Shown one piece after another: positions 14,695 through 53,800 of a stretch of 64,000 bases of DNA. The first letter of the stretch is position 1; each line of letters opens with the position of its first letter. Under the pieces are notes generated by a model. The model saw only the letters and a list, made by a program, of their open reading frames with translations, did no database searches and was not told the origin of the DNA. Both the position numbers and the translations under genes were made by a program. This DNA comes from Antedon bifida (lineage: Eukaryota; Echinodermata; Crinoidea; Comatulida; Antedonidae), in NCBI GenBank assembly GCA_963402885.1, contig OY727100.1, positions 20,431,665-20,495,664 on the forward strand, given 5' to 3'.

Positions 14695-17600
14695 ATGGGT
14701 TTGAAGGGAATTTTATTTATTGTATATATACAATCTTTAGTCGGTAAGATAATTAAAATATAATTAAATATGATAATCAACAACTAAACGACAAATACAC
14801 TTTTTATTCAGCCAGTTACTATTGAACTATTTTTCAATAACCATTGATTACAAACGCATGAAACTAAAAACAGTTGGTTGAGAGCAGTTTTATTCTTTTA
14901 CTTGTTTGCATTATCTAGAATATATATTTTTTTAGGTTGAGACAGTACAGTTTTGAATTATCATTGGTAAAATATAAACAGTAGGATATGTTTGATATTT
15001 TAAAGCACATGGTCAAACGACCTTTAATCAGACAGCTAAAGAAGGCGATGCTGAAGTGGTGATAACTTGTGATTATTCACAATTTACTTCTACACCTGAT
15101 GCAATACAATGGGATGAACTAAATGAAGAAGTAACAATCAACCCAGGAATTGTGAATGATAAAAGGATGGAAAATGGACGTTTCCAGTTACACACTGCTC
15201 CTGGTGAAGCTAGTCTGGTGATCTTACATCCTTTGAGAAACGATTCTCACAGAATATTTAGATGCCAGATACAAACCGCAGATGGATTGATTAAATTATT
15301 AAGTCCATCTATGCTAACTGTATATTGTGAGTATAACAGATAATCATGATGTAGCCTGAAAAAAAAACACATCATAAACCGACATTCTTAATGAATTTAA
15401 AAAAAAATTGTAGGCCTATAATTGTAAATGTTCCCACGTCACGCCAATAGTATAACTCCGGAATTAGAGTTACATTTTCTTGAGTACCAATAGGCATAAT
15501 ACAATTTTTTTACACTTCTTTTTGTTGTAATTTGTGTTGACTACATCTTTATTTGTCTGCTGTCTAATTTGTTTTATACCTTTTCTCAGACTTGGATCAA
15601 CCACGTCTTAATGCCTCAGCAAGCACTGCTTATGAAGGTGAAACAGTCACATTTACTTGTAGTAAACCTGATGGTGATCCTATTCCTTACATTACTTGGT
15701 ATAACGATGGACAGAAGATAAATACCAACGGCAATGCCCTTAAGATTGAATCAGCCACTATGGATGACAGTGGTATATACACATGTAAAGCCGAGAGTGA
15801 TCATTTTAAGGGAGTTGATGCTAAAACTAGTGCCGGAAAACAGTTGGAAGTATTTTGTATGTAGAAAATATATGTTGTGGTATATTTGTTTGTATCTAAT
15901 GATAGCCAACTATTAAAGATATGAGCCGATCAAAAATATAGTTTTTATGTAATATACGGTAGTAATCTGAAGTTTCGATAAGTTGAATTAGAAAAAAATA
16001 CCACTGTTTGGTTTTCCTTTGTTTTGTTTTCTTGTAAAAATAAACTTTCTGTATCTATATTCTGAATACTTAAATTTTGAATATCCTTATTATTTTTTCT
16101 GCCCCTACTCCTCCACCTCTTGAATGTTTCATTTACTTTTATAATTTGCTTTGTTTATTAATAGTTTTCTTGTTCATCATTTACCATATATTGTACTGTA
16201 CTTCTAGAAAGGGTCCCATAATTAAAAATAACTTTTTGAATTTGCTTTGTTTATTAATAGTTTTCTTTCTTTCGTTTCTTTTTCTTTCATTTAGAGTCCT
16301 GTGGGTCTTCTTCTGTAAGGGCCCAGATATATTCATAACTAAATAAAGGTGTGATAAACTGAATCTGTAATAACAAGCTTAATTTTCTTGCTGTTAGGCC
16401 TACATCGATTCCAAAAGAATATTCATTTTCTTAAGCTTTAAGCTTTATCTTCCCTCATTAGATATGATCGCAACATTCAATCATGAAGATTGTTTTGCAA
16501 CCTGTACAGCAGAGGGCCATCCCAAGCCATCATCAGTATTGATATTACAAGATGGAGAAGTGGTTAAGAAAGGAGAAAATACAGCAACTATAGAAATTAA
16601 TGATGAGATATGTTCATCAAATCTTACATGTTATGCAGAGAATGAAAAACTTAATGCCTCTACATCACTTGAGAACTGTAGTCCCAAAGCAGATATGCCT
16701 ACAAATGGGCCTACAGAAAATTTGAAAGGTATGTCACCATACTGTATTTACCAAGTAATATGTGTTAGTGTCTGAATGATTACATTTCAACTTGTTAATC
16801 ATTCACCACTTTAGACAGTATTGAAAATAAATATTTGCAATGATTTCACAACCAAACTAACGGTTAATTCTTTTCTAAAGTTTTAGATGATTCGTTTCAA
16901 GTGGGTACGGTAGGCCTACTAATTGTGGCTATCATCATTGCATTCATTCTTGGTTCTGTTCTTACATGTTATATTGCTGTAAGTACTTTTTGTTTACAGT
17001 TTTAAGTCAAGATGATGAATAAACATTCCTTTAAGCACCCAACGAACAAACTAATACTTTTTATTGAAATTGTTTCTTTAGCAAAGACGATTAAGAGAAG
17101 TCCATTCAAAATATAAAAATCTTCAATGCCAAGTGAAAACTCAATCCAATGTTGACGTTTACAGCGAGCTCAACAGAGTCCAATTTAGGACAAGAACACA
17201 GGTAAAAAAACCTAAATACATTAATACTGAACTGATTTACAATCAATTTTGACAACTCTGTGGTTTGACGCTGTTGAAGTATTCCAACAAAACAGAATCA
17301 ATTGGAGAGTGAAATCATAATTTTCCAATATTCTATTGTTGTATCATGGATAAATTCCTCTATGGTTGTACTCAATAAACGTCTAAGTTGTTTTTGATTT
17401 GACAGAGTGAACAGCGGGAAAAAATCAACAACACGTTGCATCCAAGTGGGAATTAAGCTTAACAAAAAATAACGTTCAGTGTAGGCAAGATTCTGTTGAC
17501 ATTAATAAATATACCCAGTATATTTAATTATATCATAAGCAATCTAAACTTGTTTTTAAGTACCATGAATTTGTTAGTGACTAATAAACCTTCTTATATA

Positions 17601-20321: not shown

Positions 20322-20630
20322 TTATATTTCTGTTTGCTTAATTTCTTTCTTAGAAATCAACTGCATTTCAATATTATACCCCTTTGTTTCTGAACCATAA
20401 TTGTAAACACACACTATTCCTTCTGCTTCTTCTTCCCCTTCTTTTACACTGTAGTAAGCTAGGTCAGATTCTTCTGCATTCACTGCACCTAGTGTGTACA
20501 ACTGAGACCAGGTTTTACAACCATCTTTACTTAAGTAAAGTGTAAGATCCTTATTTGTCTCATTTCCATGACTTGTCACTGCTACTTGGTAGAACTCATC
20601 TGTCTTGGTTGGTAAAAATACAATACCACT
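20322..20630 (-). other. Last sialidase exon of B (Asp box SKDGCKTW)
   Basis: After a TCTAG acceptor this reads 102 codons to TAA. SGIVFL aligns with the CQGSV.SF strand of NEU proteins, NKDLTLYL with RADLGAYL (the third triad arginine position is not Arg here), ESDLAYY with YSDL (the catalytic Tyr position is Glu), and the last strand VCVYNYGSE..NIEMQLI with the closing NEU strand. The same exon, with a frame-breaking change, ends gene C. Confidence 0.75.
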
Positions 20631-23600
20631 CTAGAAAATAAACAATTTAAAATGACATTTTAAAGCCAAATACAGCAGAAATAGTCTGGCAGCCAAATCT
20701 CTAAGAGATTTTAAATGACACCGTAATTTATGTACCATAAATAAGGCAAATATAGTTTAAATAATCATTGTGTATTGATAAATGCGAGTAAAAATAAGAC
20801 TATTAATTTATATACTATTTAAATATAAATTACTAAAAGTGCACATAGAAAGCGCAAATCTCGATCTATGCCTAGGCAACATAACCTCTCGTGTTTCTGG
20901 TGGAGGTAACACATACAATGTGTACGAGTGTAATGCATAAAGTAGTAGTGCTTTATAGAATATGACAAAGAAATGACAGTAGCCACTAGAGATACAAAAT
21001 AACATCGCATACCTGGCATTCGAGATTTGTCTCTTCTTTCTCATTCACAACATCAACTGTTTTACATCCATCCTTGCTGTTTATAATAAAAAGATGTGTA
21101 CTATCATCTTCCAATGTACAGATGATGTAAACTTGATCTTGACCATATTCAACAACCTACAGGTAATAAAAATCGTTATACAAGGTGTTAATTAAAAACA
21201 TTTTATTGTATGAAAAGAGAATTCACTCGTATTCTTACTTGTGTATGTATTCCTGATGTAACTTGTAGTTTAATAACATGTTCAATGTTACAGTTGTCAC
21301 CATCATCAGTACTTATTATTACAAGTAGGCTTCCTACAAAAACAACACAAATAATTTATATTTCTTATGACTGTTAATAGCTCATGACAGATGCAAAATT
21401 ACATCATATGTATTTTCATATAAAAGTATTAATGCTGGCCCAACAAAATATTTTCTGAATCATGTTTACTTTTCTGACAAATGTCCCAGTGTATACAATT
21501 TTTTGTGATATTACATTGAGTGTGAGTGTTTGGAAATGAAAAACACAACTTATTATTTAAAGACCCATTCCCTACAATTTGTGACGTTTTGTAAAAATAA
21601 TGCATATATATAACTTTAAAAACATTAAACCAGGTCATTCCTTGTCTTAAATGTAGCTCACGGTAAATATCCTCTCGTGGACGGTCTTTAGGCCTAGCCT
21701 AGCTAGGCTTAGTTTTGTAGGCCTAGCTGGTAAACATTGGTAATGTACGAACATCGTATGCTAGCTATAGGCCTAGCCTGACGTTGTATAGTTGCTGCAT
21801 TGATTGTCTTTCTGTTTTTGCCAGAATCCGTTGATATAAATTGGGGAAAACCGGTACTTTCACTGAAAAAGTCTTCCATTGTTTTGGCCTCACGATCAAT
21901 TGAAAAGTGGGTGAATTACAGAAGAAAAACGAAAATATCAATCTGTACACAATGCATGTTGGGATTTATAGCGGGACGCTAAAATTATTAGAATCCACTT
22001 ATTTTTCACATTTTTAAACGTTTAAAGACGAAAAAAGTTATCTCAATAGGACCATTTAGTATTTACTTTTACATTAAATGTACTTAGTGACCTTAAATGA
22101 GATAAAAAAAATGTAGGGAAGGGGACTTTAAACCAGGGTCAGGATAATTCTATAAAGAAATAGATTCTATTATTCAATAGCCTATTTTTATTTCTATAAA
22201 AAGTATTTATAGAAAATATGTGTGTTAAAATAAGTGAATGTCATGTGTAATGCCAGGGTCTGTTATAAAAAGCTAATACAATACAAGTACAGTCAACTCT
22301 CCCAATACCGGACTCTCCCAAAACCGGAATTCACGAAAAACCGGACTTTTTTGGAGGGCCCAATTTGTCCCTATTCTAAATGTACTGTAATTTATTATGA
22401 AAACCGGAATACCCAATTCCGGAATCCGGACAAATTATGAAGTACAAAACACGAAAATTAGCGTCTGAAAACCGGACGGACAGTTAAAAAACTCCAAATA
22501 TTTACGAAAACAACGTAACATCGTCGTCGCTGACTCTGATTCAATACATTCACAATATACAAAAGCTTTTAACCATACCCTGACCATGAAGTGCGCGACG
22601 TTTCGCGGGGTACGATCAAATAATGTTGCCATGGAGCGCTACACTGTGATTGACAGGTCAGTTCATTGTTAACCCACGAGGCGGCAATTGCTTTGTTCCG
22701 TATCGAACTGCGGTGGGCTAGGGCTTTTTCACATCGAAGCGCTATGTCTTAATGTCTATTGTTTTTAGCAGGGAGTTGTTAACAACTCCCTGTTTTTTAG
22801 CATATGAATTGTTCAAGTTCAATTTACATTCCACTTTGTGTCTTTGTTTTGTTTAAATTATTGTTAAATTCACAATTGCAATAGGACTTTAAAAAGGAAT
22901 GTTTCACTAAAAATGTGCATCATTATAAATTTGGAAATCATTATGGCAAAACGTAAACGGAATGAACTTGACTTAACTAGTGTTAATAAACTTTGAAATG
23001 TTACCAATTAATTATTGTGTCATTATTGCTTGGCTCGTTTACCTAATCAATTTTCATCATTGCTATCAAATTACGTCAAAATAAAGGAGCTTAAAAAACA
23101 TGCGGTCCAGGTGTGGGCGTTTTTATTTGATTATGACACCTCTGCACATGCACATCAATCAAAGCCCCGCTTTGCTATTTTTATCACCCATGCTGCTGGC
23201 TGCTAGCTAGCTCACGAAAAAAAAACAATAAACAGACCGAAATTATGTTCACCGTACGTACGTAGGCCTTTTTGCCGTTAAAAACACATTGAGAAACAAT
23301 AATTTACTATTGTAACATGTTTTATTGGTACAGTAAATAATGTAACTTTTAAAAAAGGTAAATTGAATCAGCTTAATATTAATAAAGTAGGCCTAGGCCT
23401 ATCAGTATTTATTTAATTAAAACTAGCTTGACACAATCATAGCCTAGGCCTTCCCTACGCTAGACCGCACCGGGCAGCATTCCGAACGGTGATTCAAAGC
23501 ATTTTCAGTGACAACGTGATGACTTTAAAAATATGTTTTCAGGAAACCGGACTTTCGAAAAACCGGAAAATATATGCCCGTCCAAGGGTGTCCGGTATTG

Positions 23601-26600
23601 GGAGAGTTGACTGTATAAATAATAATATTCAAATTTCCTAAATAATTACTTTCTTTACTGCCATTATTGTCGATATTGCAAACTCCTGCAAGAACCAGAT
23701 TCCCTGACTCTAAGCAAACACCATCAATGCCTAAAAAAAATGTATGTGTATAATATATGTTAAAACAAAAAGATAAAAATTTACTTTTATAGTTTGTAGT
23801 ACTTTTATTTAATTTTGGTATTTTTTAAAGAGATCAGATGCTGCTTAAACTTAAACTAACAAAATACTATTTTGGAGAAAAAGAATAAGTGATATTTTCA
23901 AATTATTAGTTTTAATTGCATTATTCTTCTTTATAGATTATCAGGTTAGTCAGTATTTGATTGTAATTTAAAGTAGGAAAGTACAATTACTGTAGACATT
24001 CAATAGATAATATTTACAATTATCAAAAACATTTTACCAGCACATTAATGGCAGAAAAGAACATTTTTATATTTGAAATTCAGTGACATTCATATGCACA
24101 GCTCAGATATTATGCACAGCATAGCCAGTTTAGCCATGGCAACTCCCAAAACTAGCAAATTTTATACAAGCCATGAATAGGTCATGCCTATACTCACATA
24201 GGAGGGATGTAACTTCTTCGATTTTTGATGGAAAGTTTACATAAAATGGTTCTTTCCAATTGTCTCCATAATCATCAGTTTCTATCTTTATTGTTTTCCA
24301 GTCTTTTGTGTTTTTATTTTGTTTAACACACATTAGAATCACCTTTCTGTTGTGTGTTACAATTGGTACTAGATTCTGAAAGCTGTATGGTAAATAGTAT
24401 AAGTAAAAACAAACACACACTTGGCATATTTTAATCATTTTCATGTTTCCAATTTTTTGTTTCTACTTAAAAATATTGGAAACCTTCAAATTCCAATTCC
24501 AAACTTCATTCACATCATTTTCTTTACATACATAGCACACACATATGGATTGTGGATAGCCAAAAAAAAAAGTGTTTCTATTAGTGTTTCTTACATAGAA
24601 TGAATAAAAAAATTAGAAATATTTGTATAGTACAGTAGGCCTATGTTTGTAAATCATTGCTCTGAAAGGCTGAATTTCCAGATGGCTAAGCCTAAGATTG
24701 TTCACAAAGTATTTAATTTATTTAATTATTAATTAAAATCCATGGTGTGTTCCCCAAACCCACCCTTGCTGTTAAAAAACCCAACTTTTTAAAGACAAGA
24801 TATTACTGTCATACTCAAATGTAATACCTTGTATCTTCTTCGTGTAAAATAACTCTTGATTCTTCCCATTCAATCAAACTCTTTATGTTCATCTTTCCCC
24901 TTTTCAATATTACATCTGAGTTATTTTTCTCAACAAAGACAAGAACATGAGAATTTATAAAAACTACTGCAGGACGTCTATAAAATAAGAGAACAAAATG
25001 GATACAAATTAACAGTATACTGCAGTAACCTGTTTTTTAAATATGTGGTTATATACTAATGTGCATGGGATGAGTAAGTATAATATAAGTGCACTCCCCC
25101 CTGATAAATTAGGCCACCCTTTCCTCGAACTTTCAATCTTCACTCTTTCCTAGATTCTGTAAACTTTGGAATGGTCTTCCCTCTGATTTAAGAGACCTTG
25201 CTCTCCTTAGCAGGTTTCGAGATTTTGTGACTAGTCTTCGCCTATTTCCATTCCTGATTTCTCCTCTCATTGCCTCTCTTCCTTTTGATTTGAGTCTTAG
25301 ATTTTAATTTAACCATTTTTTTTTCTTTATTTTGCTTTTTAAATATTTTTTTTTTTTTACCGTCATTTAGCCTATATTATATTTATATTATATTTTATTT
25401 ATGTTAAAGGAAAGTCTTTAAACAGTGTTGGGTTCGCTTATGACAATCCTGGCTTTTTGTTTCATTATATATTTTTATGTTTTCTGTTGTAATTGTAATG
25501 AGCCGATATTGAATAAATCAAATCAAATCAAATCAAATCAAAGTACTCTGACAAATTATTTAAAAAAAAACCAATATATATTACGGTTTTTTTTAAAATA
25601 ATTCTGCTTGATGACAAAGCAGATGACCTATTAGACCACTAGGGCTTTCATGGTATTGTTCAAAACCAATTGGTTAGCAACACTTTAACATTCAACTTAA
25701 AGAACCATGCATTTACCTGTATGTGTTATCGTGTTCATAATCAGCTGCAGCTGCAAAATATTTATTAAAATATTATTGAATATGCAGTCATAAGTGTCAT
25801 AATTTGTTTACTCAGCAACACAGTTACCAAAGTGATATAGTATTTTAAATTTGAAAATAAAGCATCTTAATAAATGATTTAATTTAAATAGAAAATAAAA
25901 CTTACAATAAAAAGATAAATTGTTAACACCTGGATACTGCTGTCTACTGCCCTCTATGCTGCAGTTGTACTCTCCTGAATCAGATCTCACAGGATTTGAA
26001 ACCGTTAGGCTAATTCTTCCTCTACCACTAGTAGACACTTAAAAACACAAAAACAAACAAAACTAGAATTTAATTCGTCACTTTGACGAATTATAGGTGA
26101 TAATTTTTATCATTTTACTGAAATTAATTTTTTTTAAACATGTACGTACGTTAACATGCGATCGGAAAATGTTGATGTATGGCATCCTATTATACGCTTA
26201 TAGTGCTGAGTTCTGCCTATTATGCCATATACAATATGTACAGTATATACTGTATATCTATATACAGTGTAGCATAGGTGAAATTACGGGTTACACATCA
26301 TGTTCTAATTTTTTGGTATGATGGAATTATCAAAATAAACTTGAAGATAGTCTAGGACCTGGGTCAGATTTGTATGCATTTAATTTAGGAGAGAATATCT
26401 CAACTGTTATAGGATAATTTGACCCCAACGAACAACATGGAATGTGTGCCAAATTCGCTATCCGGGACGAACATTCCCAAAATCGGGGTCAAAGGTTAAA
26501 AATGTGTGGTTCTTATATCTCGACAACCACTTGTCGTACAGATTTGCTTTTGGTGTCACATTGTTCAGAATATACATATTTATATTCGTACTAACACAAC

Positions 26601-29600
26601 CTTTAGCGAAAAAATGACCGGAAATGCTTTTACTGACCTTTGACCCAAAAATGACCAAAAAACACTTTTTTGGGTTAAATTATTCTTTAAAATGCCAATG
26701 GAAAAACTGTATGGTATCAAATGAAAGCATACACAATATGCTACCTATTGCTATCCAACTTGTATTGAAAATGTTTAATTACGAAACTAATTGTATGGAA
26801 AATGTGCATATTTTGATTATTTTTATGCAAAAAATGAATATTTGGTAGCGTAATTATTATGTTTATTTATATAATATTAAATAATTTAAGTGTTTGGAAA
26901 ACTATTTGGTATCAAATGAAAGCCCATAAAATATTCTATCCATTGCTACCCAACTTGTATTAAAAATCTGTAATTATGATGCTAATTTTGTTTAAAATGT
27001 GCATATTTTATTATTTTTTTACTAAAATTAGTATATTAAATAGTGTAAATTTATTTTGGTTTATTTATAATATTAAATAATTCAAGTGTTCTTTTGGTCT
27101 CAAATTGTTCAGAATATACATATTTATATTCGGTCTAACACAACTTTTAGCGAAAAAATGACCGAAAATGATTTTACTGACCTTTGACCCAAAAATGACC
27201 AAAAAACACATTTTCGGGTTAAATTATTCTTTAAAATGCCAATGAACAAACTGTATGGTATCAAATGAAAGCATACACAATATGCTACCTATTTCTATCC
27301 AACTTGTATTGAAAATGTTTAATTATGAAGCTAATTGTATGGAAAATGTGCATATTTTGATTATTTTTATACAAAAAATGAATATTTGGTAGCGTAATTA
27401 TTATGTTTATTTATATAATATTAAATAATTTAAGTGTTTGGAAAAACTATTTGGTATCAAATGAAAGCCCATAAAATATTCTATCCATTGCTACCCAACT
27501 TGTATTAAAAATCTGTAATTATGATGCTAATTTTGTTTAAAATGTGCATATTTTATTATTTTTTTACTAAAATGAGTATATTAGTGTAAATTTGTTTTGG
27601 TTTATTTATAATATTAAATAATTCAAGTGTTCTTTTGGTGTCAAATTGTTCAGAATATACATATTTATATTCGGTCTAACACAACTTTTAGCGAAAAAAT
27701 GACCGAAAATGATTTTACTGACCTTTGACCCAAAAATGACCAAAAAACACGTTTTTGGGTTAAATTATTCTTTAAAATGCCAATGGACAAACTGTATGGT
27801 ATCAAATGAAAGCATACACAATATGCTACCCATTGCTACCCAAGTTGTATTGACAATTTTTTAATTATGAAGCTAATTGTATGGAAATATTTAATTATTT
27901 TTTGATTATTTTTATACAAAAAATGAATATTTGGTGGCGTAATTGTTATGTTTATTTATATAATATTAAATAATTTAAGTGTTTGGAAAAACTATTTGGT
28001 ATTAAATAAAAGCCCATAAAATATTCTATCCATTGCTACCCAACTTGTATTAAAAATCTGTAATTATGATGCTAATTTTGTTTATTTTATTTTTTTTTTT
28101 TTTGTTTTTTTTTATATTATTTTTATTATTTTATTATTTTTTACAAAAATGAGTATATTAAATAGTGTAAATTTATTTTGGTTTAAATAATTCAAGTGTT
28201 TAGAAGATCTTGGTAAATTTACCAAGCATTTTGAACCCATTTTTACTGTTTTATCACTTTTAGATATTAATTATGTTTTTTTATATTTAGGCTGAGGGTA
28301 AATCAAATTATCCTATAACAGTTGAGATATTCTCTCCTAAATTAAATGCATACAAATCTGACCCAGGTACTAGACTATATGACATTAATTTTAACTAAAA
28401 ATATTATTCATATTGGATGTTACTTTGTCCAATATGTTACATTTTCCAAACATTTAAATTATTTAATATTATATAAATAAACATAACAATTACGCTACCA
28501 AATATTCATTTTTTGTATAAAAATAATCAAAATATGCACATTTTCCATACAATTAGCTTCATAATTAAAAAATTGTCAATACAACTTGGGTAGCAATGGG
28601 TAGCATATTGTGTATGCTTTCATTTGATACCATACAGTTTGTCCATTGGCATTTTAAAGAATAATTTAACCCAAAAATGTGTTTTTTGGTCATTTTTGGG
28701 TCAAAGGTCAGTAAAAGCATTTCCGGTCATTTTTTCGCTAAAAGTTGTGTTAGACCGAATATAAATATGTATATTCTAAACAATTTGACACAAAAAGAAG
28801 TCTTGAATTATTTAATATTATAAATAAACCAAAATAAATTTACACTATTTAATTTTAGTAAAAAAGTGATAAAATATGCACATTTTTAATAAAATTAGTA
28901 TCATAATTACAGATTTTGAATACAAGTTGGGTAGCAATGGATAGAATATTTTATGGGCTTTCATTTGATACCAAATCGTTTTTCCAAACACTTAAATTAT
29001 TTAATATTATATTAATAAACATAACAATTACGATACCAAATATTCATTTTTTGTATAAAATTAATCAAAATATGCACATTTTCCATACAATTAGCTTCAT
29101 AATTAAAAATGTTCAATACAATTCGGGTAGCAATGGGTAGCATATTGTGTATGCTTTCATTTGATACCATACAGTTTGTCCATTGGCATTTTAAAGAATA
29201 ATTTAACCTGAAAATGTGTTTTTTGGTCATTTTTGGGTCAAAGGTCAGTAAAAGCATTTCCGGTCATTTTTTCGCTAAAAGTTGTGTTAGACCGCATATA
29301 AATATGTATATTCTGAACAATTTGACACCAAAAACAAATCTGTATGACAAGTGGTTGTCGAGATATAAGAACCACACATTTTTAACCTTTGACCCCGATT
29401 TTGGGCATGTTCGTCCCGGATAGCAAATTTGGCACACATTCAATGTTGTTCGTTGGGGTCAAATTATCCTATAACAGTTGAGATATTCTCTCCTAAATTA
29501 AATGCATACAAATCTGACCCAGGTCCTAGACTAAGATGACAATTTCGAAAGATAATGAATTGACCAAATAAATATAAGAATTGAAAGAGAATTTGGCACG

Positions 29601-30414
29601 TAGAAGCACAATGCGCGCTCTTTGAAATTTGTATAACTAAAGAAATTTAAAAACTACTTTTTAACTTCAACTGGCCATATGATAACATCACAACATCCGA
29701 TAGGCTTAATTTTTATATGAATTCATATCTACATTTCATCAGCTTTTATAATAAGTTATAATCTTCAAGGTCACCTTTAATTCTGAAGAGCTGTAAAATA
29801 TTCAAATATATAGTGAAGGTGAAATCACAAGACCTAGGTTAATCAAGTTTTTACACGTGATAACGTCATCAAAATGAAAACGCTGACAACTCATGAGAAA
29901 GATAAATAATTAAGCAAGCACATACTGAAATTTGTGAGAAATTCGAGCACAAATAACCGAGATGCGCTCTGTTGAATGTGATAACCTACACAAAAAGATA
30001 ACAAATCCTAATTTTTAAATTTAAACATTAAATGAAGTCATCTAAAATTTAATTTCTTTATTTTAGAACTTTTAATTGTGAAAGTAAAAATAAATATATT
30101 TTCATTTATGTGCATTGTCCATGGGCATTGTCTAATGCATCACTACATTTACCATTTCACTAACATTTTATAATTTTCCTTCTAAAATTAAATTCATTAT
30201 TTTAATGGCTTCCAGAAATATTACTTTAACAGTTTTTCTAAAAAACAAATAATTCATTTTGCATCAAATTTTTTGTATTTAATAATTATATACCTTGGGC
30301 ATATGTATTAATTAAATAAATGTCCTAGGAAGAAGTTAAACAAATTATTGTACATAGTAAATGAAAATTGCATTAAAAAAAACATGTTACTTACTTGAGT
30401 AAGAAGTTTTAGAT
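20322..30414 (-). CDS. Gene B downstream module: V-type half-Ig spliced to a complete NEU-like (probably inactive) sialidase domain
   Basis: Exons: 30414-30395 and 26037-25906 (last half of a V-type Ig, ISLTVSN..RSDSGEYNC), then seven sialidase exons 25750-25717, 24977-24828, 24382-24198, 23730-23650, 21333-21239, 21156-21013 and 20630-20322, ending in TAA. All phases agree. The sialidase part is about 332 residues, slightly under a NEU enzyme. Visible in order: TYRRPAVVF (FRIP motif), LKRG..., NLVPIV, Asp-box TDDYGDNW, GVCLESGNLVLAG, Asp-box relic STDDGDNC, SKDGCKTV, ECQSGIVFL, KDLTLYLSKDGCKTW, SDLAYY, IVCVYNYGSE. This follows human NEU2/NEU3 strand by strand. By hand alignment, the catalytic Asp, Glu, Tyr and second and third Arg are absent, so binding rather than hydrolysis is likely. 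Joining exon 33595-33583 to 30414 creates a TGA, so the 5' start is unresolved. Confidence 0.8.
21558..22132. mobile_element. Non-autonomous DNA element with TAAAGACCCATTCCCTACA termini
   Basis: The left end AAAGACCCATTCCCTACAATTT and, inverted, the right end AAAGTCCCCTTCCCTACATTT form imperfect terminal repeats about 570 bases apart, in an intron of gene B. A related, shorter copy in the opposite orientation lies at about 61365-61550, sharing the AATGACCTGGTTTAATG block and the CTAGGCCT-rich middle. No transposase. Confidence 0.6.
22290..23613. mobile_element. Tigger/pogo-like non-autonomous transposon, TA target site
   Basis: The terminal inverted repeats are perfect over 24 bases (starting CAGTCAACTCTCCCAATA, then CCGGAC) and are flanked by TA on both sides (22288-22289, 23614-23615). 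Shorter CCGG-rich words repeat inside both ends. CAGT ends plus a TA duplication fit the pogo/Tigger branch of Tc1/mariner. The 1324-base interior shows no transposase frame. It contains a 24-base palindrome at 22769 and CTAGGCCTA-rich sequence. Lies in a gene B intron. Confidence 0.8.
22769..22792. repeat. Perfect 24-base palindrome inside the Tigger-like element
   Basis: CAGGGAGTTGTT is followed at once by its inverse. It is flanked by near-identical words GTTTTTAGC and GTTTTTTAGC, as if a very short terminal-repeat element had inserted with a target duplication of about 9-10 bases. Confidence 0.65.
25085..25542 (+). mobile_element. 5'-truncated LINE (3' end of the reverse transcriptase frame and pentamer tail)
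   Basis: A frame reads LWNGLPSDLRDLALLSRF.., with stop near 25306, matching the C-terminal end of CR1/jockey-type LINE polyproteins (W..LP..LR....F). It is followed by a 3' UTR and a tail of repeated CAAAT units ending at 25542. It sits in a gene B intron, opposite to the gene. Confidence 0.7.
26063..26098. repeat. Short palindromic repeat TTAATTCGTCA...TGACGAATTATAGGT, copy 1
   Basis: ACTAGAATTTAATTCGTCAC followed by TTTGACGAATTATAGGT. A nearly identical copy in the same orientation is at 31829-31865. The inner arms AATTCGTCA/TGACGAATT pair as a hairpin. The two copies bracket about 5.8 kb. Confidence 0.6.
26349..29532. mobile_element. Inverted-arm (foldback-like) DNA element with AAGAT target duplication
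   Basis: The ends are AGTCTAGGACCTGGGTC and its exact inverse, extending with few changes for about 300 bases, and are flanked by the direct repeat AAGAT (26344-26348, 29533-29537). The left arm holds three tandem units of about 530 bases (26640, 27170 and 27720 regions), and the right arm two inverted units (28690 and 29240 regions). A further internal copy of the right end lies at 28303-28373. Non-coding. The element sits in the intron between gene B exons 30414-30395 and 26037-25906. The superfamily was not recognised. Confidence 0.8.
29540..30390. other. Intron of B, no feature seen
   Basis: AT-rich sequence between the foldback-like element and the 20-base exon at 30414-30395. No coding frame with splice support and no clear repeat was found. 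Confidence 0.4.
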
Positions 30415-33582: not shown

Positions 33583-36500
33583 CATCCATTCAAGTCTTTA
33601 GCTAGAACATGAAATAAAAAATAACACAACACTTAAAGAATACAGCTGTGGTGATGGCATATAGCAAAAAAAACAAAAAAAAAACTATACTGTACAGTAA
33701 TTATTAGGAATTTGAGTTGTCATTGTCTTTGTTTTAACTATACCTAATACATACGTAATCTTAATTTACAAATAAAAATATATTAATTTATGTTTATACA
33801 ATATTGATACTTCTTCTATATCAACAATACATTTTTGTTCAATCAATCAATCAACCAACTTTAGAATATATAGAACCATAAAGAGTACTAAATGCTTTTA
33901 TGTGCTGATCACTTTAAAAAAAATGATTTAAAACAGACTAACATAATAATACAAATTCAATATTAGTTCATCTGTATGAATCTCTATAGCCAGCTTGCAT
34001 AACAGAAATAGGTTTAAAAGTAAAAAGCTGGAAATTACGAGAAAACACATTAGCATGACCTCCAAAATTAGATAGAACAAAAATTAAAAAACAAATTGTT
34101 GTTGTGAAAAGTGAGGCCGTATCAATTTGATCTCTGGTGCGTGTGCGTACAATTTAAGGACTATAGTGCTGTTTGGCTGTATCACACCAAGAGTGAAAGA
34201 GTCGCTATCCAATGGGGTTTGAACAATGCCATAAAAGCAGAAAAAAAAAAAAATCAGAATTGATGCATATGTCTTTACACAATTATTGTCATAGAAATTG
34301 TGATTGCATAACTTAAAAAATAGCTATAACAATATATATATTCAAACATTTTTTTGTGCATGCCACTGCGCTTTTTAAGTTTTTAAATAAAGATTCTTAC
34401 TGTATGACCGATGTTGAAGGGTCCTCCTTAAATAAAGAGAAAACAAACATAGATATTGTAACATTAATAACTTAATAACTTCTAATAAATAAACCTGTAC
34501 TTCATTAGCAATTTCTACAATACAATGATTTAATTTCTGAGACAGAATAGTTCGCTTGATTGAGTTTGGTCACCCTATTAATTACTCCCTTACCCAAACA
34601 AAATATTTAAGTTGATTGATTGATTGATTGATTGAAGTAAAAGGTATACATTCAACTCTATTGAAACAGGACTTTTTGGAATGAATATCAAGCAAAAAAT
34701 AAACTATTCATGTTCCACCTGAAGCTAAAAAAAAGTAATCAAGAGAATAAATAAATAGCAAAGTTTATACCCACCAGATGTTTCTTGATGTTCTGCTAAA
34801 AGTTCACTACCTTCATCAACAGGATTTGTCTTCGAAAACAAAATTGAAACAGATTTTACATTTAAGGATGTTTTAAAATACTGTAATGTTTAACACAATT
34901 ATTTAATTTTTTTTTTTCAATATGACAGTAAAATACATAGAATAATTCAATTTTTTTTTAAATCAACATTAATTGTTGGTTGTTTCATGTGGTAGGATAT
35001 TTCTTGCCTTGACAGTTGTAAAATAAGATGATTTTGAGATTGATAGAAAATTCAGAAACTGTAAATAAATAGCAAGATAGCTCGGCATAACATTGTAAGC
35101 ATATATGCTATATTTATTTATCTATTTAAGAATTTGTAGGAAAGTGAAAATTCAATATACTGTATATCAACATACAAAATAACTAGACATAATTTAATGT
35201 TAATGACTGGTAGAATAATGATGGTAGAATTAATTATTGACCTAGCATTTTAAGAGTAAGGTTTGGGAGTAGATATTTATATCCGACAGATATACCAATA
35301 TGATATACAATAGATAATTATTTATTATTTTCAAGTTAGTTGAGAATCAAAAGTTAGTTTTATACTATTCTCATATTACCAACCTCGGATGTTTCTCCAG
35401 ATTTAGGAAGTGCAGAAGTGTCAACAAGAGGAACATCTGCACCATCAGGATCTTCTCTTTCACTGCCGTTCATGCGAATCTCTTCACCACTTCTACTACC
35501 ACTGCTGTAGGGTTGACACAATAAAAGATAATATTACAACACAGGTACCTCTGTACAATCAAGACATTCTCTTTCATTCACCCTCAGCTAATACTCTACA
35601 CTCCTCTGTTGCAACTGGGTCAATATAATAAACAGTTTTTTTGTTATAAATTGAAATAAAATTTATTGTGAGAGTTTTCATACTTTGATTAAAATTTAAA
35701 AAAGTAAAAATAATGTATGTAATTATGTTAGGTAAAGGTAAGTCTGTCCAGTATTCAGTTCTGAACGTAGAGGAATGAGCTGTTAGGAGCTCATTGTACT
35801 AAGCCTCGGCATTATGTGGTAGGGTGGCCAGTTTCTTTCCACGCCGCCTTATCCTCTCTAGTATTTTCAACCAGGTACTCATTTACAGCTGAGTAGACTG
35901 GGAGTTGTCAGGAATAGAACCCAGGTCTCTCTGTATGACAGTCACGTGTCCTAACCACTCGGCTATCCAACTTCTTATCATTATGTTACAATGGTGAAAA
36001 AACCTAAACTAACCTGTGTTTCTTTTTATCTTTACTGTTGTATTCAACTATGACATAAAACAAAGAGTTAATGCATTTAATAGAATATATTGAAACAGAC
36101 AAATACAGTCAATGTATAAACTGTACATGAAACATTTTATTAAAAAGGAAAGTGAATCAATAAGGTTTTATTGTCCAAAAAAATACAATAAAAAATAATA
36201 ATTACATTAATTAACTGATGATTTGAAAAAAAATTGAAATAAAATAGTATGAAAAATAATAATACTTTAGGATAAATAAAAAATATGTAATAACTTCAAT
36301 TCAATTCAATTCAATTTCTTTATTGCTGCAAATGCCATCAAGGGCTAATATCCGCTTAAACATACTACATCATACAAACATATTTATACATATTTACATT
36401 TAAAATTTAAACACATAACATTTATAGGCATTACTACTGTAGTAGTTATTAACTTACATGATTTGAGGCAGTATTCAATACAACAAAATCCACAAAAGTA

Positions 36501-50846: not shown

Positions 50847-53800
50847 ATGGCGTTATTGTTGGCATTATTTACACTCTCTTTAATCGGTAATGAATTATTT
50901 ATTAATATCTGTAATCTAGTGGGCTATATTAATCGTAATGTAGATATTTTTTAAATTTGTACCCGTTTAAAGAAAACCAAGATGTTGGTGGTGACAATGC
51001 ACTATTTTACTGAAACTAAAAAATAATCAACAGTGATTTTACCATAAATGTCCGTCAATCCTTATTCTAATATGTTACAATGTTTGGTCATGTTTTTACC
51101 AAGATCTTCTTCAACTTGTTTTGTGACGTAGCTACAAAATAAAAAGGTCTATAAATCATTAAAATTTGGTTAAAAATTAGTATCTACTTCACTACCTTTT
51201 AGCCTGTAACGTTTGGTATTCTTTATCCATTAAAAGCACTTTGTCAATCTGTGATAACTTCTGATCAGAAAGCCAAGGAGGGTGATACTGAAGTGGTTAT
51301 AACTTGTGATTATTCACAATTTACTGCTGATGCACCACCTTCAATACAATGGGATGAGCTATATGAAGATAGATCTACAACAAACCTTGTGAATGATAAT
51401 AAGATAGAAAATGGACGTTTCAAATTAAACATAAAACCTGGGAAAGCTGACTTGGTGATGTCACAGCCAATGAGATCCGATTCTAAGCGAAAATTCCAGT
51501 GTGAGATACGAACAACAAATGGAGATATTATTAAAAGCTCAAATCCATCTATCCTAACTGTTTATTGTGAGTACCGTACTAAATTAGAACGCCTTATTTT
51601 ATTATTCAATCTAGAATTAAAAAGAAAACAGATATTTGAATTTGAATTTTGAAAATTATTATAACAAGAAAAACTAAACATTAAATATGTTGTTAGGTTG
51701 CTGTGTTAGAAATTCTATTGTCTAATTATTGTAAATTAAATGTAATGCTTAAAAGAAAGATATATTTGAAAGAAAATAAAACTTTAAAAAATTAACTTCC
51801 TTAAACATTCTTGTGACGTACTGCCAAAAATATATCACATTGTAGTGAAAACAAATATAATCTGTTCTCAGATTTGAATCAACCACATCTTAATGTGTCA
51901 GCAAGTGGTATCTACGAAGGTCAATCAGTGACCTTTACCTGTAGTAAACCTGATGGTAATCCTATTCCTCACATTACTTGGTATAAAGATGGACAGACAG
52001 TCATCACAGACAACCCTTCTAGATATGAGATTGCAAATAACAGTACAGAGTCAGTTTTTAAGATTAAATCAGCTACTAAAGAAGATACTGGGAGATATAC
52101 ATGTAAATCAGAAAGTGATCAGTTTAAAGGAGAAGATGCTAAAACAAGTGCTGGAAAATATCTAAATATATATTGTATGTGAAAGTTTTAATGTTGATTT
52201 TCAATGAAAACCAACGATCAATTTCTACGAAACAGTATTTTAGTTTAATAATCAGTCACGTAAATAACTTACTTTTAATTAATATGTTGTATATGCTAAT
52301 AATTACTGTAAATATCGTAATGTTATGCCTTTCTAGATATCGTTGTAAAATTTACGCCTGAGGATGGTTTTGCAACATGTACAGCAGAGGGCCATCCCAA
52401 GCCATCATCAGTATTGATATTACAAGATGGAAAAGTGGTTAAGAAAGGAGACAATACAGCAACTTTAGGGACTAACAATAATATATGCCAGTCCAGTCTT
52501 ACATGTTATGCAGGGAATGGAAAACTTAATTTGACAGCAATTTTAGAGAACTGTAACGCATGTAATTTTATCATAACATTATTTTATTTATTTTAACAAA
52601 TAATGTTTTACGCAGTAGAAAATCTGTATGTGAAATTTAGGCCAGACTCATAGGTATATACTGTTTTATGCCAGTTCAGTAGACCGTGATTTAAAATGTT
52701 GTCTCACTTGTTTAGGCCTAAAGTATCTGTTATGTTTCATAATAACGAAGGTCTTATACGGCGAATCTTATTTGTGCTTCACTATCTTTGTTTTATAGCC
52801 ACATATAAAATGCAATCAAGCGATTCATATTAAGAAGGCATTATGAACAAAATAGTGAGAACTTTTGTTCTACTATGTATATTTCAACATTTTACATTTA
52901 CTTTTCTAGGTGGTTGTTCATATGCAATAATTACTGTGATTATAACTACAGCAATAACCGCAATTATTCTTGGCTTTGTTCCGATGTTTATAATAACCCG
53001 TTATGTTTATGTAAGTAGGCCTATTCAATCAATATGAGAGATATTGACTTTTGTTGAAACTTAACATAATAACAAAACCTAGAACTACTGTAGTATGCCT
53101 ACACACTTTCAATAGGTAATTACATGTTGTTACCTGTATCGTTTTAAGGTAAAGAGAATACAAGAAATCCGTTCCAAGTGTCAAAGTCCTCAACAATATC
53201 AAGCAATGCAATTTTCTTCAAATGCTGGAGCTTGCAAAGAGCTCAACAAAGGTCCTACAGTTGAGGCTAGTGCTACCAGGACGTCAAATAAAACTATATC
53301 CAGAACAAGCATACAGGTATACATGTTGTAATACATTTTAAACATTCTATACTAATGTGTAACAATTCAAACCTAAGTGTTCCCATTTTTGCAAACTGTT
53401 GTAAAGTTACAAAATAATATTTATTTATTTATTATTTCTTGTAAGAGATACATTCATGCAAACTATATAAAACCAAACATCAATGTTTACACAATCATCA
53501 TCTATTGTTTAACAGAGAGAAGTAAGAGAAATCGAACTTCACCACCATCAGTACCAAGGACTCCAAGGACTGCAAGTTTCGGAAAACTCTGATATCGCCA
53601 TAGATGACGAGGGATATGCCAAGGCCATTAGGGTATAATGACGTAGTATTATGTATCGCAAAGTTTGTTAGAGGGACGGGGGTTAAACATTTTAGTATAC
53701 TCAAGTGACACTATTTAAACGTATAGTCCCTAATATCCACATGACCAATAAAATGAGTTACAGAAGAAGTTACAGTACGTCTAATTGAGAGCGGGAAATA

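Follow-up and report, generated by a model that had tools for sequence, protein, structure and literature searches.

Immunoglobulin exons joined to a sialidase-like domain in the crinoid Antedon bifida

A 64,000-nucleotide stretch of the Antedon bifida genome (contig OY727100.1, positions 20,431,665 to 20,495,664; here called the window) includes, on the minus strand, an exon for half of a V-type immunoglobulin (Ig) domain followed by exons for a sialidase-like domain. This combination was pointed out in an earlier note made from the letters of the window, and it raises the question of whether the two parts belong to one gene and what kind of protein such a gene might encode. Three copies (A, B and C) are present. 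The explanation that we favour, and to which we would give an even chance, is that they represent an Ig-superfamily membrane gene family, found so far in Antedon-like crinoids, that would end in a second set of Ig domains and a sialidase-family propeller acting as a binding head.

The Ig-sialidase join in genes B and A

In gene B, GT-AG splicing of eight minus-strand exons from 26037 to 20322 gives, in frame, a product of 375 residues that comprises half of a V-type Ig domain and a full-length sialidase-like domain. AG/GT is found at every internal exon boundary, and the joined frame is open until the stop at 20322. The sialidase part is made up of seven exons totalling 998 nt (approximately 332 residues), and both their number and phase and their position directly after the half V-type Ig exon are as the earlier note had claimed. 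The exons, of which the last six are supported by splicing and by a match to the crinoid profile described below, are:

25906-26037, minus strand: half V-type Ig exon (D to G strands, SDSGEYNC), AG/GT, in-frame phase
25717-25750, minus strand: linker exon, identified by splicing, ending in the first Arg of YRRP (gene A counterpart, 612-570)
24828-24977, minus strand: sialidase exon 2
24198-24382, minus strand: sialidase exon 3, with the TDDYGDNW Asp-box
23650-23730, minus strand: sialidase exon 4
21239-21333, minus strand: sialidase exon 5
21013-21156, minus strand: sialidase exon 6
20322-20630, minus strand: last sialidase exon, with the stop

Pfam BNR_2 matches the 375-residue product with 58.4 bits (E 9.6e-16, cut-off 31.4), so that the failure to find a sialidase match which the earlier note had allowed for did not occur. 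Single exons of gene B gave only weak Pfam scores, and the half-Ig exon alone scored 18.8 bits with V-set, below the cut-off of 26. As a control, a crinoid profile built from four proteins of Antedon mediterranea was run on the window and on the reversed window. Of the seven sialidase exons in gene B, six were matched individually, their sequence following that of the model (positions 4-56, 53-107, 118-141, 142-174, 174-227 and 224-321; weakest match 0.0024), the 34-nt linker exon going unmatched because it was too short for the set of open reading frames (ORFs). Elsewhere in the window the profile matched one gene A exon and two pieces of the last exon of copy C, and there were no matches at E<=10 in the reversed window. 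By eye, the exon at 23730-23650 has an alternative in-phase donor that alters few residues.

An intron between the gene B sialidase exons contains, at 22288-23615, an element with perfect 26-nt terminal inverted repeats that looks like a small DNA transposon. Upstream of gene B, the same peptides recur in the ORFs of 26400-29500, where blocks of sequence are repeated in either orientation.

The same join is found in gene A after four more Ig exons, all in phase, and here too the earlier note was correct. Sixteen minus-strand exons from 9987 to 248, all with AG/GT, encode 1008 residues without a stop. Gene A extends past base 1 of the window, and the remaining sialidase part would lie outside the visible sequence. 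Its exons are:

9987-9679 and 9568-9281, minus strand: Ig exons (I-set; third Ig with stalk), open frame
8329-8243, minus strand: transmembrane (TM) exon, open frame
7852-7592, 7340-7301, 7138-6964 and 6582-6498, minus strand: second hydrophobic Cys-rich segment, then acidic linker, open frame
5080-5062 and 4408-4392, minus strand: microexons of 19 and 17 nt, in phase
4119-3988, minus strand: half-Ig exon, in phase
3564-3253, 2612-2289, 1931-1461 and 1308-994, minus strand: four further Ig exons, in phase
612-570 and 397-248, minus strand: linker exon and one sialidase exon, in phase

The V-set cut-off of 26 is exceeded at 1315-995 (40.1), 3562-3248 (29.6) and 1932-1459 (30.0), while the Ig profile score at 2613-2287 falls under the cut-off. 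With the I-set exon upstream of gene B (65.4 bits), these scores place the genes in the Ig superfamily, and the Ig profile check proposed earlier was passed by the exons above cut-off and failed by 2613-2287 and the half-Ig exon of gene B. Ig2-Ig5 have no equivalents in gene B, in which an intron of 155 bases (25905 to 25751) separates the half-Ig exon from the linker exon.

The exon at 7852-7592 was considered as the missing first half of a split V domain and joined to the half-Ig exon. The V-set match was partial, spanning only residues 53-108 of 115, and this assignment is therefore unproven. The Ig exon 1931-1461 contains QSPDPTS repeats, the number of which is variable, since a related A. 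mediterranea protein (P0031, below) holds 16 further residues of repeats.

The larger gene and its relatives in Antedon mediterranea

A and B each continue upstream of the Ig-sialidase join, which forms the final part of a larger gene. The earlier note was right about the join itself and missed its scope, in-phase Ig exons, a TM segment and a linker being present upstream. In gene B the assembled exons of this receptor half all have AG/GT, and the frame leading from them into the half Ig is open in two of four splice routes tried:

41082-40756, minus strand: upstream V-set-like exon (V-set 20.4 bits, below the cut-off of 26), outside the assembled frame
39887-39585, minus strand: upstream I-set exon (65.4 bits, cut-off 23.7), outside the assembled frame
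39057-38833, minus strand: third Ig and stalk exon
37340-37263, minus strand: TM exon
36712-36458, 36047-36014 and 35504-35384, minus strand: receptor exons
34829-34775, or to 34771 with a second donor, minus strand: last receptor exon
33583-33601, minus strand: microexon 1 (19 nt)
30395-30414, minus strand: microexon 2 (20 nt)

Relatives were sought among about 5.8 billion proteins by a method that requires shared 5-residue words and limits length. Four proteins were returned with E <= 1, all from A. mediterranea. In P0001 (657 aa) and P0002 (571 aa) BNR_2 comes after Ig domains, whereas P0003 has BNR_2 without Ig and P0004 has Ig without BNR_2, the BNR_2 scores of P0001-P0003 being 46.8 to 71.6 bits. 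A profile search additionally gave P0005, also from A. mediterranea, and 25 weak bacterial or metagenome sialidases (E 0.0014-0.0062), which are the closest non-crinoid proteins to the crinoid profile. A further A. mediterranea protein with Ig and BNR_2, P0031 (986 aa), was found using residues 325-650 of P0001. The same sialidase domain is found in P0001, P0002, P0003, P0005 and P0031, the first two and the last also having Ig domains, though the A. mediterranea proteins differ in being uncharacterized, with no function deposited, and in a variable number of Ig domains. Identity between the gene B sialidase domain and P0001-P0003 is 59-64%. No animal beyond A. mediterranea was among the relatives found by the word and profile searches, and absence from other animals is weakly indicated because of the word and length limits. 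When genome contigs were scanned with the crinoid profile (two peptide patterns), none of the 71 pattern matches encoded a relative.

P0031 aligns exon by exon with gene A, starting inside the second exon, and shares 86% identity across 865 residues, both microexons included. Its first 11 residues (MYSGGPSQAII) correspond to an out-of-frame reading of the gene A Ig exon 9568-9281, and the model probably lacks N-terminal Ig domains because the in-frame reading of this exon continues the Ig domain.

These data bear on whether one gene or two are present. It is rather unlikely, in our estimation, that two adjacent genes were duplicated as a unit, one for a membrane Ig receptor and the other an independent Ig-sialidase gene starting from a promoter and first exon of its own, with P0031 and the in-phase microexons reflecting read-through or a merged prediction. 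P0001, P0002 and P0004 do begin within the Ig-sialidase half, and a single protein would have an awkward topology (below). In addition, when four splice routes from the receptor half to the half Ig of gene B were tried, the one that uses both microexons reached a stop at their junction, ahead of the half Ig, and another was shifted in frame. However, the remaining two routes, with either both microexons skipped or the second donor combined with microexon 2, are open to the final stop. The 16 exons of gene A are likewise open and in phase, including two microexons that are also encoded by P0031, and no alternative first exon was found among the matches listed in a comparison of the upstream exons of A, B and C, which was noisy. 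The one-gene explanation that we prefer draws on the in-phase splice chains of A and B, on the match of gene A to P0031 through both microexons, and on the occurrence of Ig together with BNR_2 in three A. mediterranea proteins. If it is correct, the two microexons between the halves may control production of the head: in gene B, inclusion of both would lead to a stop, and either joint skipping or the second donor with microexon 2 would allow the head to be made. The frame of gene A also remains open with both skipped.

A sialidase-family domain and its catalytic residues

The earlier note had likened the domain to human NEU2/NEU3. In blastp comparisons with a six-sequence database, NEU2 residues 20-354 aligned collinearly with 230-529 of P0002 (E 8.6e-8), and E values of 3.5e-7 were obtained with P0001 and P0031, 3.3e-4 with P0003 and 0.002 with B. 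NEU2 also matched a Bacteroides enzyme, P0011, at 7.8e-8, a value comparable to those of the crinoid proteins. The crinoid profile is nearer to this Bacteroides sialidase than to NEU2 (34.2 versus 13.6 bits in hmmsearch; hhalign probability 98 versus 86), and a profile search of PDB listed bacterial sialidases only, with 2bf6 the best (1.9e-6) and NEU2 not listed. Membership of the sialidase family is thus firmly indicated by sequence comparison. Descent from an animal NEU does not follow, because the Bacteroides sialidase scores above NEU2, and of the earlier proposal the collinear alignment stands and the NEU assignment is not supported. The predicted structures were poor, that of P0002 in its C-terminal half (mean pLDDT 53.0) and that of P0003 likewise low (50.4). 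In a Foldseek search with the P0002 model, Ig proteins made up most of the 50 matches listed, and NanH sialidases took ranks 4, 7 and 8.

Six residues, R21, D46, E218, R237, R304 and Y334, are given as fully conserved in metazoan sialidases in PMC3431349. In alignments produced with three MAFFT modes, which agreed, Arg21 is retained in all four copies that cover it and the loop containing Asp46 is gapped in all four, with an Asp nearby. Arg237 is replaced by Leu or Phe, Arg304 by Asn, Lys or Asp, and Tyr334, in a column anchored by SDL, by Glu (5/5 covered copies in each case). The Glu218 column holds Gly, an assignment that is unsure; in the next column four A. mediterranea copies have a Glu, where B has Ile. 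When P0011 was used as a control, R21, R237 and R304 were placed correctly and D46, E218 and Y334 were off by at least one column; the Asp and Glu calls are weaker for this reason. The T/FYRI/VP motif appears as TYRRP, SYRHP, TYRHP or NFRRP, with Arg and Pro kept and I/V replaced by R/H.

Arg21 is therefore the only one of the six that is clearly kept. The crinoid domain is very likely a pseudoenzyme in which catalysis is not to be expected, and the Arg triad is also unlikely to bind a carboxylate in the canonical way. It is highly improbable that the Ig protein displays a sialidase that still works through an atypical active site, even though the homology to GH33 enzymes is collinear, Arg21 is kept, and a shifted Glu and an Asp near the deleted loop are available. 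The changes at Arg237, Arg304 and Tyr334 in every covered copy, the missing Asp46 loop and the Ile in gene B at the position of the shifted Glu all argue against it, and sialidase activity is not supported.

Sequence change, topology and known systems

Copy C is incomplete, and the crinoid profile found none of its sialidase exons other than the frameshifted last one. It consists of:

62257-62241, minus strand: microexon
61738-59520, minus strand: four Ig or half-Ig exons
59324-59039, minus strand: last sialidase exon, frameshifted, matched by the crinoid profile in two pieces

It is quite unlikely that all of the copies are decaying fragments of a formerly functional fusion, C having broken first and the remaining copies drifting the same way. 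C lacks most sialidase exons, P0031 and P0005 cover only part of the domain, and microexon 1 of gene B has diverged. Ratios of nonsynonymous to synonymous change (dN/dS), calculated by the Nei-Gojobori method from few changes and without a statistical test, are 0.76 (A-B), 1.91 (A-C) and 0.63 (B-C) for the half-Ig exon, and 0.77 for Ig2, 0.87 for Ig5, 0.87 for Ig4/Ig3, 0.79 for I-set and 0.78 for the cytoplasmic exon. For the last sialidase exon of B against the broken C, values of 0.76 and 2.84 were obtained. However, the sialidase exon common to A and B gave 0.32 (52 codons), while most Ig exon pairs lie at 0.63-0.87. Gene B is open across its seven sialidase exons while sharing 61-64% identity with the A. 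mediterranea copies, P0001 and P0002 span the whole domain, and splice sites and phases are kept.

Under the explanation that we favour, membrane Ig receptor genes would carry, C-terminally, a second group of Ig exons followed by a propeller of the sialidase family that, judging from the alignment, lost catalysis. Held on Ig domains, the propeller would now bind glycan or protein, and the locus would diversify via tandem duplication with gain and loss of Ig exons (B without Ig2-Ig5; C without most of the sialidase). The genes encode one strong hydrophobic segment, with a Kyte-Doolittle (KD) value of 3.3 in A and 3.4 in B, and a weaker Cys-rich one (1.85 in A and 1.77 in B) followed by a basic run.

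Several points weigh against this explanation, in addition to the limits of the dN/dS values. The topology is ambiguous, there being two strong possibilities: with both hydrophobic segments crossing the membrane the head would lie outside, and with the first one alone crossing it the head would be cytosolic. A search for a signal peptide established no exon encoding one, and the join with 7852-7592 did not reveal the initial part missing from the half-Ig domain. The Ig-sialidase join is known here from genomic exons and gene models. P0031 may be transcript-based, as its microexon residues suggest. Binding and an immune role are putative. The immune character that the earlier note gave to the cluster, based only on Ig content and local duplication, is not supported. 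We consider it rather doubtful that this is a crinoid recognition-receptor family, in which a dead sialidase would serve as a ligand-reading head on Ig domains, switched by the microexons and diversified by tandem duplication and exon shuffling, for self/non-self or pathogen recognition.

Literature word searches found no paper pairing Ig and sialidase domains in this way, which agrees with the earlier statement that no such animal family is described. Among bacteria, an Ig module is already known in the sialidase of Micromonospora viridifaciens, reported by Gaskell in 1995. It resembles the crinoid protein in combining an Ig-type module and a sialidase propeller, and differs in being an enzyme that a bacterium secretes and that also contains a galactose-binding domain. 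The Ig module of this enzyme is not known to be related to the animal Ig superfamily. Siglecs are Ig membrane receptors tied to sialic-acid biology, in which binding is through a V-set domain; they are not known to contain a sialidase fold. The bacterial GH33 sialidases (NanI, NanH, Bacteroides), which are the best PDB profile matches and structure neighbours of the crinoid domain, differ in being active enzymes and not part of an animal Ig receptor.

The metazoan enzymes NEU1-NEU5 (PMC3431349) are collinear with the crinoid domain between the YRIP region and the SDL motif, and differ from it in the Ig fusion and in five of the six catalytic residues, which in the crinoid domain are not retained or unsure. 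NonA of group B Streptococcus (GBS) is a sialidase homologue that has lost enzyme activity, as appears to be so for the crinoid domain, but is a bacterial NanA orthologue, and its abstract mentions no Ig receptor (PMC4926279). A word search on crinoid immune genes revealed no such family by title and abstract. What would be new is that a single family of crinoid genes unites two kinds already known, the Ig receptor and the sialidase pseudoenzyme. If true, this would be an unusual construction of a recognition head, in a group given as sister to all other living echinoderms in PMC11336682, and the A. mediterranea copies make such a receptor testable.

Elsewhere in the window, two plus-strand Ig loci (15604-16736 and 51889-52409), near which the crinoid profile found no sialidase exon, are relatives of the A and B receptor halves.

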